Source of the DNA: Pseudomonadota bacterium
GTDB taxonomy: Bacteria > Pseudomonadota > Gammaproteobacteria > SZUA-229
Length of the DNA: 7,310 bases
NCBI GenBank assembly: GCA_015222915.1
Contig: JADFWE010000347.1
Location: forward strand, 1 to 7,310
Direction: 5' to 3'
Shown: one piece after another, positions 1-7,176 of the stretch
How positions within the stretch are numbered: the stretch's first letter is position 1
Layout of the letters: the number at the start of each line of letters is the position of its first letter
The notes under the pieces: model-generated
The model's database searches: none
What the model was told of the DNA's origin: nothing
What the model saw: only the letters and a program-made list of their open reading frames with translations
Translations under genes and position numbers: made by a program

Positions 1-624
1 CAGTCACTGGTCAGCGGCGTCAGCGCCAGGGGTCTCGACCTGAAAGCCAACGCTACCAGCGATATCGAGCTGCCGGTTACTTTGAAATTTAAAGATCTGA
101 AAAAACTTTCCGGTGAGCTGTGGAATAAAGAAAAGCTCAGCTACCAGCTGAACACTACTTTCAATATCAAGCTTCCGGTCATCGGTAACTATGCCATCCC
201 CGTCAGCAAACAGGGCGAAGTGCCGGTACCGAAGATGCCGAAGGTAAAACTGAAAAATGTGAAGCTGAAAGATCTGGGGTTCACCAGTGCAGATATCATC
301 GCGCGCGTCGAAGTTGATAATCCCAATGCTTTCCAGCTGGGCATGAGTAACTTCAACTACCAGCTGAAGATCAATGACCAGGACTGGGGACAGGGAAAAC
401 TCAAAACGGCAAAAGCCATCCCGGCTAAAAGCAGTGGCATGATCGAGATCCCGCTATCGCTCAACCTGATGAATATGGGGCAGAGTGCCTACGCTATACT
501 GACGGGTAATGCACCGCTGGATTATCAACTGAATGGCAGCATGACAGTGGATACCGGCATCGAGATGATGAAGGCAATAAACGTACCGCTGGACGTCAAA
601 GGCAGCACTTCCCTGAATAAATAA
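1..624 (+). CDS. LEA type 2 / WHy-domain protein, 5'-truncated by the window edge
   Basis: The reading frame is open from base 1 to the TAA at 622-624, giving 207 visible residues. The TTG at codon 28 lies inside the protein and is not a credible start, so the true start is upstream of the window. Two WHy-like units are visible. The tail of the first contains YQLN at residues 48-51 and then a proline-rich stretch (LPVIG, AIPVS, VPVPKMP). The second spans roughly residues 78-200, with the hallmark NPN turn at 107-109 (VDNPNAF) and a matching YQLN at 175-178, 127 residues after the first. In this family (LEA-14, water stress and hypersensitive response domain) bacterial members are often lipoproteins or envelope proteins linked to stress or desiccation, but their molecular role is poorly defined. 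Any lipobox or signal peptide would lie outside the window. Family assignment is fairly firm; function is not. Confidence 0.8.
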   Translation, partial: QSLVSGVSARGLDLKANATSDIELPVTLKFKDLKKLSGELWNKEKLSYQLNTTFNIKLPVIGNYAIPVSKQGEVPVPKMPKVKLKNVKLKDLGFTSADIIARVEVDNPNAFQLGMSNFNYQLKINDQDWGQGKLKTAKAIPAKSSGMIEIPLSLNLMNMGQSAYAILTGNAPLDYQLNGSMTVDTGIEMMKAINVPLDVKGSTSLNK

Positions 625-664
625 GCATGAATAAGTAAATTATGAATAAAGTTATAAACGACTG

Positions 665-1207
665 ATGAAAATAGACATCACCACCGGTCTGATCAAAAAT
701 AGCAATCTATGCATCTCTCCTAACAGGGATCAGCGACCGCAAGATACCGACATCGACCTTATCGTCATTCATTCCATCAGCCTGCCGCCGGGGCAGTACG
801 GCGGTGATGCCATAGAACAATTTTTCCAGAATAAACTCGACAGAGACCAGCACCCTTATTTTGCAGAGATACATGAGATGCAGGTCTCCAGCCATGTGCT
901 GATCAAACGTGACGGTGAGATCGTGCAGTTCGTGCCTTTTCATGAACGCGCCTGGCATGCCGGACAATCGGATTACTGCGGCCGCAAGCACTGTAATGAC
1001 TTTTCCATCGGTATCGAACTCGAAGGTACCGACACAGATAAATTCGAAGAGATTCAGTACGCAAGATTATCTCAACTCATCGCTGCTCTGAAAACGGCAT
1101 ATCCGGCTATCACCGAAAACATTACCGGCCACAGCGATATTGCCCCGGGACGAAAAAAAGACCCCGGCACCGGTTTCGACTGGGAGCGCCTGCAACTAAA
1201 AAAATGA
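665..1207 (+). CDS. ampD: 1,6-anhydro-N-acetylmuramyl-L-alanine amidase AmpD
   Basis: This cytoplasmic zinc amidase of the N-acetylmuramoyl-L-alanine amidase type 2 fold cleaves the bond between anhydro-MurNAc and L-alanine in muropeptides imported during cell-wall recycling. Its activity keeps the inducers of AmpR-controlled beta-lactamase low. The 180-residue length matches the family (about 180-190). By comparison with Citrobacter and E. coli AmpD, the zinc ligands are H36 (in VIHSISLPPG), H156 (in TGHSDIAPGRK) and D166 (in KDPG), with catalytic E118 (in IGIELEGTD) and K164. Family signatures AWHAG (96-100) and CNDFSIG (110-116) are also present, so the enzyme looks intact. The ATG at 665 gives the expected N-terminus, but I see no Shine-Dalgarno sequence before it. 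A TATAAA at 653-658 sits unusually close to the start. ampE follows after a 219-base gap. Assignment is very secure. Confidence 0.97.
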   Translation: MKIDITTGLIKNSNLCISPNRDQRPQDTDIDLIVIHSISLPPGQYGGDAIEQFFQNKLDRDQHPYFAEIHEMQVSSHVLIKRDGEIVQFVPFHERAWHAGQSDYCGRKHCNDFSIGIELEGTDTDKFEEIQYARLSQLIAALKTAYPAITENITGHSDIAPGRKKDPGTGFDWERLQLKK

Positions 1208-1225
1208 GAGTCGTGAAAGCTATAC

Positions 1226-1294
1226 TCTCGCAAAGGCGCGAAGACGCTAAGAAAGATGCAAAGGATTTGTATCTTTCTTAGCGTCTTTGCGAGA
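1226..1294. repeat. Long imperfect inverted repeat made of octanucleotide units
   Basis: The left arm begins with CTCGC at 1227-1231 and then three 8-base units: AAAGGCGC (1232-1239), GAAGACGC (1240-1247) and TAAGAAAG (1248-1255). The right arm at 1271-1293, read in reverse complement, is CTCGC followed by only two units, AAAGACGC and TAAGAAAG. Pairing therefore leaves exactly one octamer unpaired on the left. The stem continues inward (1258-1262 with 1266-1270, one G-T pair) to a three-base loop at 1263-1265, and T1226 pairs with A1294, giving about 29 base pairs. No T-run follows on either strand, so I do not call it an intrinsic terminator. A related unit array occurs at 7268-7296, which points to a dispersed repeat family. 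The remaining bases to ampE (1295-1426) are AT-rich and show no clear gene. Confidence 0.85.
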
Positions 1295-1426
1295 AAAATT
1301 CCAAATTATCCGTGTATACCCCGGAGTCATTATCTGATCGATCGAAAACATCATATCCACAGCATTTTTGAACAAAAAACGCTATAGTCAATCAAGAATT
1401 CCCAATAATAATAACAATCTCGAATT

Positions 1427-2269
1427 ATGGCGCTAATCTCCATCATCATCGGTCTGTTCCTCGATCGTACATTTCGGCACCTGCACGATCTGCGCGACAT
1501 GGCATGGTTCGAATTCTATACCCAGAGCATACAACGCCTCACCGGCAAACGTGTGCCGCCGCTGCAGTTTATTATCATCCTGACACCACCCGTTTTTGTA
1601 CTGTTGAGCATCCAGATACTGCTCAACGATTTCCTGTTTAACATTCCTGGCTTCATCTTCGGCGTAGTTGTCTTCATCTATTGCCTCGGCCCGACCTGCC
1701 TGAGCACCGAGATCGAGGCCTATATCCATGCCCGCACCATCGGTGACGAAGATGAAGCCATGCACTATGCCGGCAGCATCATGGAAGACGCTGCCTCTAC
1801 ATCGCCCGACCGGCAGATCAACGATGTGACCCGCGCTATATTATATGTCGCCAACGAACGTATCTTCTCTACCATCTTCTGGTTCATCATCCTCGGTCCC
1901 TTCGGTGTCATGCTCTACCGTCTGATATCACAGCTGAGCAAACATATCGAAACCAGTGAGCTGGCTTCTTTCGCTGAATTCGTACATTCACTTATGGCGT
2001 GGATCCCTGCGCGTATGCTGGCAGCGGGTTATGCGCTGACGGGTAACTTCGACGGCGCCTATCATGCCTATAGAGATCGTACCCACGCCATAGATTTCAC
2101 CCAGAGCAATTATGAAGCACTGGTCGCCACCGGCCTGGGTGCCATGCGCAACCTCGAGGTCGAAAATGAGATCGTCCGCATACACACGGCGCAGGCTCTG
2201 GTGATGCGCAGCATCATCGTCTGGGTGTCCATCCTCGCGGTAATGACGCTGGGCGGTATCTTTAATTAA
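1427..2269 (+). CDS. ampE: Inner-membrane protein AmpE (regulatory signalling modulator)
   Basis: The 280-residue protein matches AmpE in length (284 in E. coli), position after ampD, and layout. The N-terminus MALISIIIGLFLDRTF parallels MTLFTTLLVLIFERLF of E. coli AmpE, which supports the ATG at 1427 although no Shine-Dalgarno sequence is visible. Hydrophobic segments lie at about residues 46-66, 70-88, 146-164 and 259-279. The block NERIFSTIFWFIILGPFG (143-160) corresponds to the conserved third-span region (FWxI...GPxG...YR). AmpE is an integral inner-membrane protein co-transcribed with ampD in enterobacteria and proposed to act in signalling of beta-lactamase induction; its biochemical activity is not established. 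The block around 130-165 also recalls the CobD/CbiB membrane family as I remember it, so distant kinship is possible. Here ampD and ampE are separated by 219 bases instead of being tightly coupled. Assignment is secure. Confidence 0.93.
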   Translation: MALISIIIGLFLDRTFRHLHDLRDMAWFEFYTQSIQRLTGKRVPPLQFIIILTPPVFVLLSIQILLNDFLFNIPGFIFGVVVFIYCLGPTCLSTEIEAYIHARTIGDEDEAMHYAGSIMEDAASTSPDRQINDVTRAILYVANERIFSTIFWFIILGPFGVMLYRLISQLSKHIETSELASFAEFVHSLMAWIPARMLAAGYALTGNFDGAYHAYRDRTHAIDFTQSNYEALVATGLGAMRNLEVENEIVRIHTAQALVMRSIIVWVSILAVMTLGGIFN

Positions 2270-2303
2270 ACGGCATACATGAAAAAAATTTTGAACACAC
2301 GAC

Positions 2304-2307
2304 GAGG
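2304..2307 (+). promoter_or_regulatory. Ribosome-binding site (GAGG) of the histidine phosphatase gene
   Basis: GAGG lies 3 bases before the ATG at 2311 and 6 bases before the adjacent ATG at 2314. The 6-base spacing is closer to the usual optimum, so 2314 is preferred as the start. The two choices differ by one methionine only. Confidence 0.65.
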
Positions 2308-2313
2308 TAGATG

Positions 2314-2907
2314 ATGACGACTTATATCGATGTCATCCGGCACGGTGAGCCCGTCGGCGGCAGACGTTACCGAGGTTATAGTATAGATGACCCGCTCACC
2401 GAAAAAGGCTGGGCACAGATGCGGGCAGCCGTACCAGAAAACCCAGCATGGCAACATATCGTCAGCTCCCCCCTGCTGAGATGCCGTGCATTCAGCGAAG
2501 AACTGGCAGATGATCTGCAGATAACTTTTACTATCGATGATGACCTGAAAGAGATTGGCTTCGGTGCCTGGGAAGGAAAGACCCCTGAAGAGATCCTCGC
2601 AGAAGACAGGGAGGCACTGGATCACTTCTATGCTGACCCGGTACACAATCGACCGGAAGGTGCAGAACCACTGGATAGTTTTTCACAACGTGTATGGAAC
2701 GCCTATCTTAAGATCGCTGAAGAGCATCGGGATAAACATGTGCTGGTCGTGGCGCACGCCGGGGTCGCCCGCGCCATTACTGCCAACATCCTGCATATGT
2801 CACTGGATGATGTATACAGCCGTCTCCGTGTCGAGTACGGTGCCATCATCTGCAGCTCTATCGATGAAGGTACACCGCCGAAATTAATTATTAAAGCGGG
2901 TCGTTAG
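2314..2907 (+). CDS. Histidine phosphatase family protein, alpha-ribazole phosphatase-like
   Basis: A 197-residue branch-1 histidine phosphatase (phosphoglycerate mutase-like fold). Numbered from the ATG at 2314, the motif IRHGE carries the catalytic histidine H10 between R9 and G11. SSPLLRCRAF supplies the second phosphate-pocket arginine (R58). EIGFGAWEG holds the likely proton-donor region (E80, with E87 following in WEG). AHAGVARA holds the second catalytic histidine, H148. The ExxFGxWEG pattern and length resemble CobC-type alpha-ribazole phosphatases, which dephosphorylate alpha-ribazole 5'-phosphate in cobalamin lower-ligand assembly. The family is functionally broad, and no cobalamin gene is visible here, so I give no gene symbol. 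The start is taken at 2314 for RBS spacing; 2311 would add one Met. It begins 44 bases after ampE and ends inside a hairpin (2899-2952), which suggests co-transcription with ampE. Family is secure, substrate unknown. Confidence 0.9.
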   Translation: MTTYIDVIRHGEPVGGRRYRGYSIDDPLTEKGWAQMRAAVPENPAWQHIVSSPLLRCRAFSEELADDLQITFTIDDDLKEIGFGAWEGKTPEEILAEDREALDHFYADPVHNRPEGAEPLDSFSQRVWNAYLKIAEEHRDKHVLVVAHAGVARAITANILHMSLDDVYSRLRVEYGAIICSSIDEGTPPKLIIKAGR

Positions 2908-2979: not shown

Positions 2980-5900
2980 ATGAAACAATATAAATGGACA
3001 TTACTTGTATTTTTACTTCTCACTAAAACGGTATTTGCCAGTAATGCATTCACCGATACCGGCAGCATACCCGAGCCGCTTCAGCAATGGATACCGTGGG
3101 TACTAAAAGACAATCCCGACATACAGTGCCCGATAAGTTATAACGAAAACGAACACTACTGCGCCTACCCCGGTTCTCTCGACATAAAGTTAACAAAAGA
3201 TGCCGGCAGCTTTCAGCAACGCTGGGATGTCTTTGCCGAGTCATGGCTTACCCTGCCCGGCGACATCAACAGCTGGCCGGTAGATGTAACCGTTAATAAA
3301 AAAGCACGGCCAGTGATCAACCGCCATAACAGACCGGCAATTCTCCTGCCCGCAGGCAACTACCGGATCACAGGGAAGTTCATGTGGCGGCAACCACCAC
3401 GCTCTATCGCCATTCCTCATGAGACCGGGCTACTCTCGCTGATCATCGACAACGAACAGGTGTTGACACCCGACCTTCGCAACGGCCAGGTCTGGTTAAA
3501 CACCACTACAGAACAGGTCCAGCAGGACAATCGCCTTGAACTTCAGGTCTTCCGAAAGATCAATGACACAATACCACTGCGCGTCGACACCCGGATAAAA
3601 CTCGATGTTTCAGGGCAGCCACGCGAGATTACTCTGCAGGGTGCGATACTGGACGGCTTCCGCGCCAGTGCGATCAACAGCCACCTGCCGGCACAGTTAA
3701 ATACAGACGGCACACTAAAAGTTCAGGTGCGGCCCGGACAGTGGAGCATCACCGTTTCAGCCATCAATACCAGGCCGCTGACCTCTATCGCACTGTCATA
3801 TGCTGGAGAATCGGAGACCGCTACAAAGTCACCGATGGTTCCATGGCCGTCTGAAGAGATATGGGTACTACAGCAACAGCCACAGTTACGACTGATAAAA
3901 GTCGTCGGCAAAAACAGTATCGACCCGAACCAGACGCAGATACCGCAGAACTGGAAAAACCTGCCGGCCTATAACATGCAAGCGGGTGAAAACCTGAGCT
4001 TCGAAGTGATCAAACGCGGTGATCCCGAACCGGAACCCGACCAGTTAACATTAAATAAAGAGATATGGCTGGATTTTGATGGCGACGGTTTTACCGTGAA
4101 TGACAGGATCAGCGGCAAGCTGTCACGGCAATGGCGGCTGAACGTCAATGATGAGCTCGCTCTGGGGCAGGTGAAAATAAACGGCAAACCACAGTACATC
4201 ACCCGTAACCAGCAGGGAAAGACCGGCGTCGAAGTCCGCCACGGTGACCTGAACCTGTCGGCAGACGGTCGTATCGAAGCGGACCAGCGCACCCTGTCAG
4301 CATCCGGCTGGGATATCGACTTCAACAGCATGAAAGCATCACTTAACCTGCCTGCCGGCTGGGTGCTGCTGGCGATCGACGGTGCCACGGCGAACAATAC
4401 CTGGCTGCAGCAATGGTCACTTCTGGATCTGTTCATGGTGCTTATCACGGCCATCGCCATCTATAAACTATGGGGAATCAGGTGGGGTGCCGTCAGCCTG
4501 CTGGCGCTGACCCTGTCCTGGCACCAGTTTTTCGCACCACAGTTTATCTGGATCAGTCTGATCATCGCCATCGCGGTATTACGCGCACTGCCGCCGGGAC
4601 GTTTTTACAAACTGGTGTTCAGTTACCGCGTCATCACGTCGATAACATTAGTGCTGATCGTCCTGCCTTTCATCGTCAACCAGGCGCGTACGGCACTCTA
4701 CCCCCAGCTCGAATCATTCAATATCGGTATCGATAATTCATACCTGGAAGAGATCGCCCCCATGGTCGCCGGCACACCGGACGCTTACATCAAAGAAGAA
4801 GGTGAGTCCCCGCAGCTCGAACAGCGGCTCAAACGCAAAGCCCTGCCTTCCAGGGTAATGTCGATGTCCAGCAGCCCGGCTACTTTAGAAAATGATCTAT
4901 TCTCATCCGGCTCCGTTCCGACGAATGCCGCCCTGAAGGCGGCCGCCGCTGCCCGTGAGATGAACATAAAAAAACTGGCCGCAGTCGATCCGGATGCGAT
5001 GATTCAGACCGGTCCGGGATTGCCCTCGTGGCAGCTGAACACCTATTACCTGACCTGGGACGGCCCGGTATCACGCGAGCAGACGATATCACTCACCCTG
5101 CTCTCACCTGCCATGCATTCATTACTGAACGTGCTTCGTATCCTGCTGATCCTGCTGATGTGCTGGCGGCTGCTCGATCTTGCTTCGTTTAGATTACCCG
5201 AACCGGAAAAACCGAAAACCGGTGACGGCAATACCGCTGCCACGCTGGCCTCTATCATGGCAGCATTGTTGATCGGTGCCACACTCGGCCTGTCACCGAC
5301 CGGTGCCGACGCAGCTTACCCGACACAGGAGCTGCTGGAACAGTTACGCGAAGAACTGATACAGCCGGCGGAATGTCTGCCGCAGTGTGCCAGTATCGCG
5401 TCCATGTCGATCGATCTGTCAGCCAAAAAGCTGCAGATATCATTGCGCGCACATGCACAGGAAGACCTGTTAATCCCTCTACCACTGCCCATCAAACAAT
5501 GGACACCGGGCGCGATAAAAATCGATGGCAAACCGGCAACAGCACTCTTCCGTAAAGAGGGAACGCTGTGGCTGCAACTGAACAGAGGCTCACACCGCAT
5601 CGATATCGATGGCCGGGTAAACCACCTCAACCAGCTGCAATTTTCGCTGCCTCTAAAACCGTATCATATCGATGTATCGGCAACAGGCTGGACAGTTGAA
5701 GGTATGGACAAACAGGCTGTAAAAATCAGGGGACTGACCTTCCTTCGTGAAGCAGATAAAAACGATAAAGCGACGGATAAGCAAACGGCAAAAGATAGCC
5801 TCATCAGCACCTTACCGGTTTATGCAACGCTGAACAGGAACATCGAGCTGGGCCTGGACTGGCAGCTGAGAACACAGCTACGCGCAATCTCCGGCACCGA

Positions 5901-7176
5901 CTACCCGATCACTTTTTCGATTCCATTGTTAGACGGTGAATCGATCCTCAGCGATCACATAAAAGTCAAAGACAAGCATGCCATCATCACGCTGACCGCA
6001 AAGAACCGCTCGGTCAGCTGGCAGTCCAGACTGCAGAAAACAGATCAGATTAAACTCACCGCCATCGACTCACAACAGCTGACCGAAACATGGTCACTCA
6101 ATACCAGTGCGATATGGCATGTGCAACTGTCCGGCATCCCGGTCATCTACCATCAGCGTCGCAGCCGGGACGGCAGCTCACTATGGTTACCTCGCTGGCA
6201 GCCATGGTCTGGTGAAAGTATCACCATCGATGTCACCAGGCCCCAGGGAATCAAGGGCCGAACCGTCACCATCGACAGCAGTACACTGTCGCTGGTACCC
6301 GGCGAACAGATCACCGCTGCCAGACTTAACTTCAACCTGCGCAGCAGTCTCGGCGGGCAACACACGATTCGGCTGCCGGAAAACATAGAACTGCAGAGCG
6401 TGAGCATCAATGGACAGAACATGCCGATCAGGAACGCGGCTAGCGGTATCGCCCTGCCGATATCACCGGGCAACCAGGACATAGAGATCAAATGGAACGA
6501 ACAGCGGGGCATATCACCGTTCTACCAGAGTTCGAGCATCGATCTCGGCACCGACAGCGTGAATCATGCCATCGAGATAGAACCGGGATACGACCGCTGG
6601 ATACTGATCACCCGCGGTCCGGTGATGGGCCCCGCTGTTTTATTCTGGGGCATGCTCGGTGTCATCCTCATCATCGCCTACGCCCTCGGCCGCATCAAAC
6701 AGACACCGCTCAGCACACTGCAGTGGCTACTGCTGGGCATCGGCCTGAGTGCGTCCGAACCATGGGCATTAATCATCATCGCCGGCAGTATCCTTGCGTT
6801 GCGCGCTCGTGGCATGATAGACACCGTTGCCATGAGCCGTTTCAAGTTCAACCTGTTCCAGATCTTCCTGGTGCTGTTCATGTTCTTCACCATCAGCACA
6901 TTACTCAGCGCCATCCAGCACGGACTACTTGGCTCACCCGACATGCAGATAACCGGCAACGGCTCAAGTATCTATGGACTGAACTGGTACAGTGCGAGAA
7001 TAGACGAAGCCACTCCTACTGCCACCCTGATCTCGGTTCCGGTCTATATCTATCGCATCATGATGCTGATCTGGTCGATCTGGCTGGCCTTTGCCCTGAT
7101 CAAATGGGCACAGTGGGCATGGAATAACTTCACCAGGGGTGAATACTGGCGCAGCAAAGTTAAAAAAGAGCAATAA
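2980..7176 (+). CDS. Large uncharacterised envelope protein with two duplicated periplasmic-plus-membrane halves
   Basis: 1398 residues from the ATG at 2980 (a longer 2947 start is less likely; see the RBS entry). Residues 1-20 form a typical signal peptide (MKQYKW, hydrophobic core, VFA before SN). Half A has C50 and C61, then a beta-rich domain to about 480, four likely spans (482-498, 502-518, 520-537, 551-567), a loop of about 140 residues and a span at 711-732. Half B opens with a signal-peptide-like span (753-772, ending ADA/AYP), then C799 and C803, a beta-rich domain to about 1215, spans near 1217-1236, 1246-1259, 1262-1275, 1292-1312 and 1350-1374, and a basic C-terminus. Basic residues fall in the predicted cytoplasmic loops, so the topology is self-consistent with both big domains in the periplasm. 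A DxDxDG loop (365-370) occurs only in half A. I recognise the pattern LPAGWVLL...TWLQQWSLLDLF from unnamed bacterial membrane proteins but know no function. No enzyme motif is visible; a structural, binding or envelope-stress role is conceivable. Confidence 0.8.
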   Translation: MKQYKWTLLVFLLLTKTVFASNAFTDTGSIPEPLQQWIPWVLKDNPDIQCPISYNENEHYCAYPGSLDIKLTKDAGSFQQRWDVFAESWLTLPGDINSWPVDVTVNKKARPVINRHNRPAILLPAGNYRITGKFMWRQPPRSIAIPHETGLLSLIIDNEQVLTPDLRNGQVWLNTTTEQVQQDNRLELQVFRKINDTIPLRVDTRIKLDVSGQPREITLQGAILDGFRASAINSHLPAQLNTDGTLKVQVRPGQWSITVSAINTRPLTSIALSYAGESETATKSPMVPWPSEEIWVLQQQPQLRLIKVVGKNSIDPNQTQIPQNWKNLPAYNMQAGENLSFEVIKRGDPEPEPDQLTLNKEIWLDFDGDGFTVNDRISGKLSRQWRLNVNDELALGQVKINGKPQYITRNQQGKTGVEVRHGDLNLSADGRIEADQRTLSASGWDIDFNSMKASLNLPAGWVLLAIDGATANNTWLQQWSLLDLFMVLITAIAIYKLWGIRWGAVSLLALTLSWHQFFAPQFIWISLIIAIAVLRALPPGRFYKLVFSYRVITSITLVLIVLPFIVNQARTALYPQLESFNIGIDNSYLEEIAPMVAGTPDAYIKEEGESPQLEQRLKRKALPSRVMSMSSSPATLENDLFSSGSVPTNAALKAAAAAREMNIKKLAAVDPDAMIQTGPGLPSWQLNTYYLTWDGPVSREQTISLTLLSPAMHSLLNVLRILLILLMCWRLLDLASFRLPEPEKPKTGDGNTAATLASIMAALLIGATLGLSPTGADAAYPTQELLEQLREELIQPAECLPQCASIASMSIDLSAKKLQISLRAHAQEDLLIPLPLPIKQWTPGAIKIDGKPATALFRKEGTLWLQLNRGSHRIDIDGRVNHLNQLQFSLPLKPYHIDVSATGWTVEGMDKQAVKIRGLTFLREADKNDKATDKQTAKDSLISTLPVYATLNRNIELGLDWQLRTQLRAISGTDYPITFSIPLLDGESILSDHIKVKDKHAIITLTAKNRSVSWQSRLQKTDQIKLTAIDSQQLTETWSLNTSAIWHVQLSGIPVIYHQRRSRDGSSLWLPRWQPWSGESITIDVTRPQGIKGRTVTIDSSTLSLVPGEQITAARLNFNLRSSLGGQHTIRLPENIELQSVSINGQNMPIRNAASGIALPISPGNQDIEIKWNEQRGISPFYQSSSIDLGTDSVNHAIEIEPGYDRWILITRGPVMGPAVLFWGMLGVILIIAYALGRIKQTPLSTLQWLLLGIGLSASEPWALIIIAGSILALRARGMIDTVAMSRFKFNLFQIFLVLFMFFTISTLLSAIQHGLLGSPDMQITGNGSSIYGLNWYSARIDEATPTATLISVPVYIYRIMMLIWSIWLAFALIKWAQWAWNNFTRGEYWRSKVKKEQ

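Follow-up and report, generated by a model that had tools for sequence, protein, structure and literature searches.

Here, we describe an intact gene for a 1398-amino-acid protein on a 7,310-nucleotide contig (JADFWE010000347.1, assembly GCA_015222915.1) from a gammaproteobacterium of the SZUA-229 lineage; "the window" below means this whole stretch of DNA. The protein consists of two similar halves, A and B. Our favored explanation, which we hold to be somewhat better than an even bet, is that it is a fused tandem duplication whose internal leader is likely cut by signal peptidase I and whose two products likely pair as a periplasmic binding scaffold. Homology of the halves, a relationship between the first and third domains of a half, the motif of the leader and the occurrence of the halves as separate genes in one genome (G068) emerge from the sequences themselves.

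Homology of the two halves

The initial annotation of the window, made by inspection of the sequence, had claimed that the protein is an almost complete internal tandem duplication whose halves are so dissimilar that a routine search might miss the relationship. Sequence comparisons bear out both points. Database searches yielded 1427 homologous proteins at E<=1e-3 among 7995 scored candidates, of which the best 120 were used, and at least 546 relatives on genome contigs, of which the best 80 were used. With profiles of 120 homologues, hhalign aligned residues 21-745 with residues 780-1398 over 476 columns (probability 97.4, E 1.1e-11). The half A-half B alignment reached E 1.5e-12 with 206 sequences and E 4.1e-17 with 269 (probability 98.8, 474 columns), the 269 rows being the kept contig relatives with an open frame of >=1100 amino acids and the listed proteins of 1200-1650 amino acids. 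Controls of the 120-homologue run gave E 0.25 for reversed B, 0.14 for reversed A and 0.043-0.64 for 10 column shuffles; in the 269-sequence run, reversed B gave E 0.26 and the minimum of 20 column shuffles was E 0.016. The best BLASTP match between the halves reached E 0.001 and was out of register, placing the third domain of half A on the first domain of half B.

Such weak, partly out-of-register BLASTP matches would suit a convergence of beta-rich, Trp- and Pro-rich periplasmic sequence that involved no duplication. We find this hardly credible in view of the E of 4.1e-17, which reversed and shuffled controls of equal composition did not approach, the membrane bundle inserted in domain 3 alike in both modeled halves, and the leader-like stretch and Cys pair at the start of each half.

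All landmark letters of the initial annotation read back correctly (29/29). Nine of the 12 landmark positions tested for their pairing aligned exactly as proposed; residue 534 paired with 1272 and not with 1274, and residues 677 and 689 lay past the aligned range. That annotation had also named three checks. All of them came out in its favor: profile-profile alignment of the halves, agreement of their predicted structures, judged by common structural matches and secondary structure, and a search for homologues containing one half. The duplication is real, and the observation holds more strongly than first stated.

A further level of repetition appeared when each half was cut into three beta domains and all 15 pairs were compared by hhalign, with 30 reversed controls giving E 0.0059 or worse throughout. 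Similarity was found between domains at the same position (A1-B1, E 8.9e-13; A2-B2, 4.4e-7; A3-B3, 1.4e-4) and at different positions (B1-B3, 9.5e-8; A1-B3, 2.7e-7; A2-B1, 6e-5; A1-A3, 1.1e-4), while the other eight pairs, including A3-B1, B2-B3, and A2-A3, stayed above 1.5e-4 in both directions. These values indicate that domains 1 and 3 within a half are related to each other and link domain 2 weakly to the other domains. The protein is probably a two-level repeat, in which a beta domain was repeated within a unit and the unit was duplicated.

Gene and predicted architecture

The open reading frame (ORF) covers window positions 2980-7176 on the + strand, and its ATG is preceded by a GAGAG stretch. 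The longest open frame begins at 2947, so the ORF could extend 33 bases upstream. We prefer the start at 2980 because of the GAGAG stretch and because a database copy of the protein (P0001), which differs from the window protein at two residues (735 and 755) and served as the reference row of the profiles, likewise comprises 1398 amino acids. The features of the gene are as follows.

2980..7176, + strand: gene for the 1398-amino-acid two-half protein (ORF, start; 1427 homologues as above)
2980..3048, + strand: predicted N-terminal signal peptide of half A, residues 1-23, approximate (loose AxA-like site ahead of conserved P31, in 248/258 homologues)
3112..3474, + strand: half A beta domain 1, residues 45-165 (AlphaFold strands; hhalign against half B domain 1, E 8.9e-13)
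3127..3162, + strand: half A conserved Cys pair C50/C61, likely a disulfide (each Cys in 261/269)
3475..3933, + strand: half A beta domain 2, residues 166-318 (AlphaFold strands; hhalign against half B domain 2, E 4.4e-7)
3967..4404, + strand: half A beta domain 3, first part, residues 330-475
4420..4698, + strand: half A predicted four-helix membrane bundle, residues 481-573 (four helices in the model; hydropathy)
4726..5016, + strand: long low-confidence loop specific to half A, residues 583-679 (predicted local distance difference test score, pLDDT, <50 at 583-652 and 665-679)
5038..5103, + strand: half A predicted closing strands completing domain 3 after the bundle, residues 687-708 (model strands; within the range aligned to M1 N-domains)
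5107..5172, + strand: half A predicted last membrane helix, residues 710-731 (model; hydropathy)
5173..5313, + strand: linker plus internal leader resembling a signal peptide, residues 732-778 (signal peptidase I predicted to cut after residue 778)
5347..5724, + strand: half B beta domain 1, residues 790-915 (model; hhalign)
5374..5388, + strand: half B conserved Cys pair C799/C803, likely a disulfide (each Cys in 265/269)
5782..6195, + strand: half B beta domain 2, residues 935-1072 (model; hhalign)
6196..6609, + strand: half B beta domain 3, first part, residues 1073-1210
6643..6930, + strand: half B predicted four-helix membrane bundle, residues 1222-1317 (model; hydropathy)
6976..7041, + strand: half B predicted closing strands completing domain 3, residues 1333-1354 (model; M1 N-domain match)
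7042..7134, + strand: half B predicted last membrane helix, residues 1355-1385 (model; hydropathy)

AlphaFold models of half A and half B of the window protein, computed from 66-row alignments, had mean pLDDT values of 82.6 and 86.3, respectively, and share the same strand order. Mapped via the sequence alignment, their secondary structures agree at 300/392 residues of the soluble part; in 120 controls with shifted alignments, agreement averaged 46.7% and peaked at 70.7% at a shift of one. Ost1/ribophorin I and the M1 aminopeptidase N-terminal domain were matched by both models, with identical solved chains and ranges, and the top Foldseek matches of these predicted models were Ost1 chains (E 2.2e-7 and 5.9e-8). 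Single-domain matches to M1 N-domains had a root mean square deviation (rmsd) near 2.9 A over 140-150 residues, and the M1_N family showed a weak sequence similarity to half B domain 3 in one of eight comparisons (E 3.6e-4, reversed 0.17). The halves are thus predicted to adopt the Ost1/M1 N-domain fold.

The M1 aminopeptidase chain 4pw4 was matched over 13..189 and 13..190 by the models of half A and half B, respectively. In protein numbering, the matched segments are 351..708 for half A and 1093..1353 for half B (330..687 and 339..599 in model numbering). In both models this range begins ahead of the membrane bundle and extends to the strands behind it, which indicates that the third beta domain carries the four-helix bundle as an insertion and is closed only after it. 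The earlier description of each half as a beta-rich region, four helices, a loop, and a last helix fits both models, except that strands of the loop complete the third beta domain. The same annotation had put the offset between the halves at 742, dropping to 648 past the fourth span. The 4pw4 matches give a similar course in the models, with 742 at the start of the domain and 645 at its end, whereas sequence alignment alone was not significant past the fourth span.

A signal-peptide-like leader between the halves

The linker before half B shows little conservation until a hydrophobic stretch, which is followed by P773 (84%), a small residue at 776, A778 in 260/269 homologues, and Pro781 in 267/269. 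Residue 776 is A, V, S, or T in 243/269 homologues, in 237 of them together with A778, and the columns 776/778 formed the top-scoring AxA pair of our scan (0.89). The segment ahead of the hydrophobic core (n-region) carries a net positive charge in 94% of 260 sequences. This stretch has small -1/-3 residues, a hydrophobic core, and a positive n-region, as do signal peptidase I substrates, and resembles an internal Sec signal peptide whose signal peptidase I motif is conserved; from the sequence pattern, cleavage after residue 778 is likely. The start of half A is built in parallel, with a cleavable-looking leader in 248/258 homologues, then a conserved Pro and then the Cys pair. The half layout as first described had overlooked the leader-like nature of the stretch ahead of half B. 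Since a leader precedes half B, the duplicated unit was probably the whole gene including its leader. On the simplest reading, the gene was duplicated in full, signal peptide included, and the copies were then fused in frame.

Alternatively, the protein might stay whole, with the leader as an ordinary membrane helix, and act as a pseudo-twofold membrane protein in the manner of an RND-type transporter or channel. To this we assign about one chance in four. RND transporters share the arrangement of a helix, a large periplasmic part, and further helices twice over, and they likewise arose from gene duplication (PMC8277102). In addition, one open frame holds both halves in all 22 matches of our phylum sample. 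However, no transporter family matched the window protein in Pfam or NCBIfam, or 33 homologues in Pfam, and the modeled periplasmic domains consist of strands almost throughout and do not resemble the alpha/beta porter fold. The cleavable-looking N-terminal leader would leave fewer than 12 helices, and in an uncleaved protein the -1/-3 motif at 778 would be kept without obvious reason.

Halves encoded by separate genes

In genome G068, the two halves are encoded by separate genes on different contigs, each flanked on both sides by other ORFs. Its half A gene encodes 713 amino acids and stops just past the last helix, and its half B gene encodes 685 amino acids and opens with its own signal-peptide-like leader. 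Both the internal leader and the separate half genes are new relative to the initial annotation. A single frame spans both halves in 28/33 matched genomes from the family of G068, and the arrangement in G068 therefore looks like a secondary split. A second protein consisting of half B only (P0188) is 82% identical over its full length, and the half B proteins P0256 and P0258 begin at their own leader. Among the 120 half-length matches listed of 185, 16 passed a filter for a hydrophobic stretch ahead of the half B start; three of these (P0241, P0264, and P0305) start further upstream, inside the last helix of half A. Some lone half B records are probably gene-calling artifacts.

Other candidates for separate halves were rejected. 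The genes of G300, G303, G713, and G718 are interrupted by contig ends, those of G242 and G064 by frame changes, and that of G719 by an insertion. The frame changes lie near residue 835 in G242 (L099) and near residue 1157 in G064 (L106). In G719 (L171), the homologue is split near residue 485 by about 1.1 kb at 4703-5796, perhaps a mobile-element insertion, and its second part equals P0201 of Thioflexithrix psekupsensis in length. In another locus (L172 of G721), a short piece related to the C terminus lies at 970-1209 downstream of a full gene, a possible partial duplication.

Distribution and genomic context

The family is conserved, and relatives are widespread in Gammaproteobacteria and several other groups. 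All genome counts refer to samples (276 genomes of the class, 397 of the phylum, 42 of the family of G068, and 17 of the window's genus). The gene was present in 40/276 genomes of the class and in 22/397 of the phylum, 13 of these 22 belonging to other classes. It was matched in 33/42 genomes of the family of G068 and in 1/17 relatives from the window's own genus, where many genomes are incomplete. Named carriers include Methylobacter, Methylomonas, Thiothrix, Oceanisphaera, Crenothrix, Sulfuriflexus, Beggiatoa, Desulfobacter, Desulfuromonas, and Polyangia; a partial record came from Thermoanaerobaculia. Methylotuvimicrobium buryatense 5G and Methylomonas sp. LW13, both non-pathogenic, also carry the gene. 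The window protein had no family match at E<=1 in Pfam, NCBIfam, or PADLOC, and a role in anti-phage defense was dismissed for want of a PADLOC match. Searches of 33 homologues against Pfam gave 13 scattered weak families only (best E 0.029), none of them ribophorin. Against PDB sequences, the single protein gave only weak NPC1-like matches (best E 0.85), and its profile gave nothing at E<=1. The window protein lacks the HExxH zinc motif of M1 peptidases, which occurs in 2/269 homologues.

Upstream of the gene, window positions 1-2907 encode a partial LEA_2 domain protein, an Amidase_2 protein that we take to be AmpD-like, a membrane protein of AmpE/CobD type, and a histidine phosphatase that resembles alpha-ribazole phosphatase. 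Gene neighborhoods were surveyed at 87 loci, some overlapping and many with short flanks. A gene presumably encoding Mpl, which acts in peptidoglycan recycling, lies directly upstream on the same strand in 9/87 loci, including the methanotroph loci L018, L020, L046, and L058, and genes that we assume to be trpE and trpG are neighbors in eight loci each. The Amidase_2 and AmpE-like proteins and the Mpl-like gene would fit a sensor or regulator of envelope stress or the cell wall, CreD- or IgaA-like and tied to peptidoglycan recycling. We regard this as unlikely, as most loci have other neighbors and the predicted topology includes no cytoplasmic domain large enough to relay a signal. A relationship to CreD was rejected on the basis of profile comparisons with 23 CreD (PF06123) sequences, every one of which gave a probability <3, and co-occurrence with CreD was not significant (7/40 carriers versus 19/236 non-carriers, p 0.076).

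Exosortase genes were somewhat more frequent in carriers (21/40) than in non-carriers (73/236; p 0.011, uncorrected, one of three families tried); exosortase is not a dedicated partner, because 19/40 carriers lack it. No partner gene was found in the 87 loci or by co-occurrence of the three families. By analogy with Ost1 and DUF4424 (see below), the most likely role of the protein is that of a non-enzymatic periplasmic scaffold or binding platform beside the membrane.

Discussion

With the duplication of the halves well supported by profile alignments, the question is how the fused product might be organized. An ancestral single gene with its own leader would have been duplicated in tandem as a whole and then fused in frame, keeping the second signal peptide inside. 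Each half is predicted to comprise three periplasmic beta domains, the third of them interrupted by a four-helix membrane bundle, and a final membrane helix. Signal peptidase I would cut the fused product after residue 778, and the two products may remain together. We speculate that their beta arrays bind polypeptide or glycan for a membrane-bound partner, non-enzymatically, as Ost1 does in the oligosaccharyltransferase complex. The fuller picture, a widespread polyprotein that is split into two homologous five-helix proteins in equal numbers, together forming a six-domain Ost1-like scaffold whose membrane-proximal domains are threaded by four helices, is one to which we give slightly less than an even chance.

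Several observations weigh against this interpretation. AxA pairs in Ala-rich helices of the bundle, at columns 493 and 532, scored nearly as high as the proposed cleavage site (0.86 and 0.79), and the leader could instead remain as a membrane helix. The leaders and mature starts alone gave no significant profile alignment between A and B (E 0.5), since the leaders are too short to align on their own. Neither the post-bundle segments (E 0.24; 0.2 in an earlier run) nor the membrane bundles (E 0.023; 0.047 in an earlier run) aligned significantly on their own, and within the repeat analysis only 7/15 domain pairs reached E<=1.5e-4 in at least one direction, with the reversed control of A1-A3 at 0.0059. 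Whole-chain template modeling scores (TM-scores) to Ost1 were low (0.13-0.29), with rmsd mostly at 15-30 A, presumably because domain orientations differ. Only in G068 were both half genes observed with their genomic surroundings, and lone halves elsewhere may stem from broken genes whose start was called in the wrong place. Finally, no gene family lay within six genes in more than 12/87 loci, and STT3 (PF02516), the catalytic partner of Ost1 in the oligosaccharyltransferase, showed no association with the gene (1/40 carrier genomes versus 4/236 non-carriers, p 0.55).

The protein belongs to none of the known families with which we compared it. Ost1/ribophorin I, a non-catalytic subunit of the eukaryotic oligosaccharyltransferase, has one membrane helix and a pair of similar beta domains on the luminal side; it was reported to bind glycosylated peptides and is without a chaperone-like fold (PMC7226087). 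The predicted models share with Ost1 tandem M1-N-domain-like beta domains ahead of a membrane helix. However, they have three beta domains per half, a bundle in the third, and two halves, and the window protein has no Pfam sequence match and does not co-occur with STT3. Likewise, the modeled beta domain is shared with M1 aminopeptidases, leukotriene A4 hydrolase among them, which carry it at the N terminus (PF17900), but the family described here lacks a conserved HExxH, and in the models a membrane bundle is inserted in the domain. A bacterial beta-sandwich resembling the leukotriene A4 hydrolase N-domain is known from DUF4424 (lpg2210), for which pairing with a catalytic partner was proposed (PMC3848476). 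DUF4424 differs in being one soluble domain plus a YARHG domain, and a profile comparison limited to two DUF4424 sequences gave a probability <9.

The initial annotation knew of no described system built in this way. This needs a caveat: RND transporters such as AcrB and MmpL are similarly duplicated, with large periplasmic loops after TM1 and TM7 (PMC8277102). As predicted here, both have a duplicated half with a large periplasmic part ahead of a membrane bundle. The fold differs, in that the periplasmic parts of the window protein are modeled as nearly all strands without alpha/beta porter subdomains, and a cleavable-looking leader precedes each of its halves.

For the proposed processing, FbcH of Bradyrhizobium offers a parallel, a cytochrome b/c1 polyprotein in which one gene product is split at an internal signal sequence. 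Its parts are unlike proteins and not duplicates. Among the top results from one open-access library, we found no paper on FbcH and no description of the family as an internally duplicated inner-membrane protein, as a polyprotein with an internal signal peptide, or as a bacterial Ost1/M1-like protein.

The window protein is not recognized by the libraries searched and would represent a family missing from them. Its architecture is unusual, in that Ost1-like arrays are predicted for a bacterial protein and a membrane bundle would lie inside a beta domain. Processing into two proteins is its most testable new claim. If the leader is cut, one bacterial gene would give rise to two homologous membrane proteins in a fixed ratio, an arrangement that, to our knowledge, is rare in bacteria. 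The family also suggests a route from tandem gene duplication to a fused protein that has retained its processing signal.

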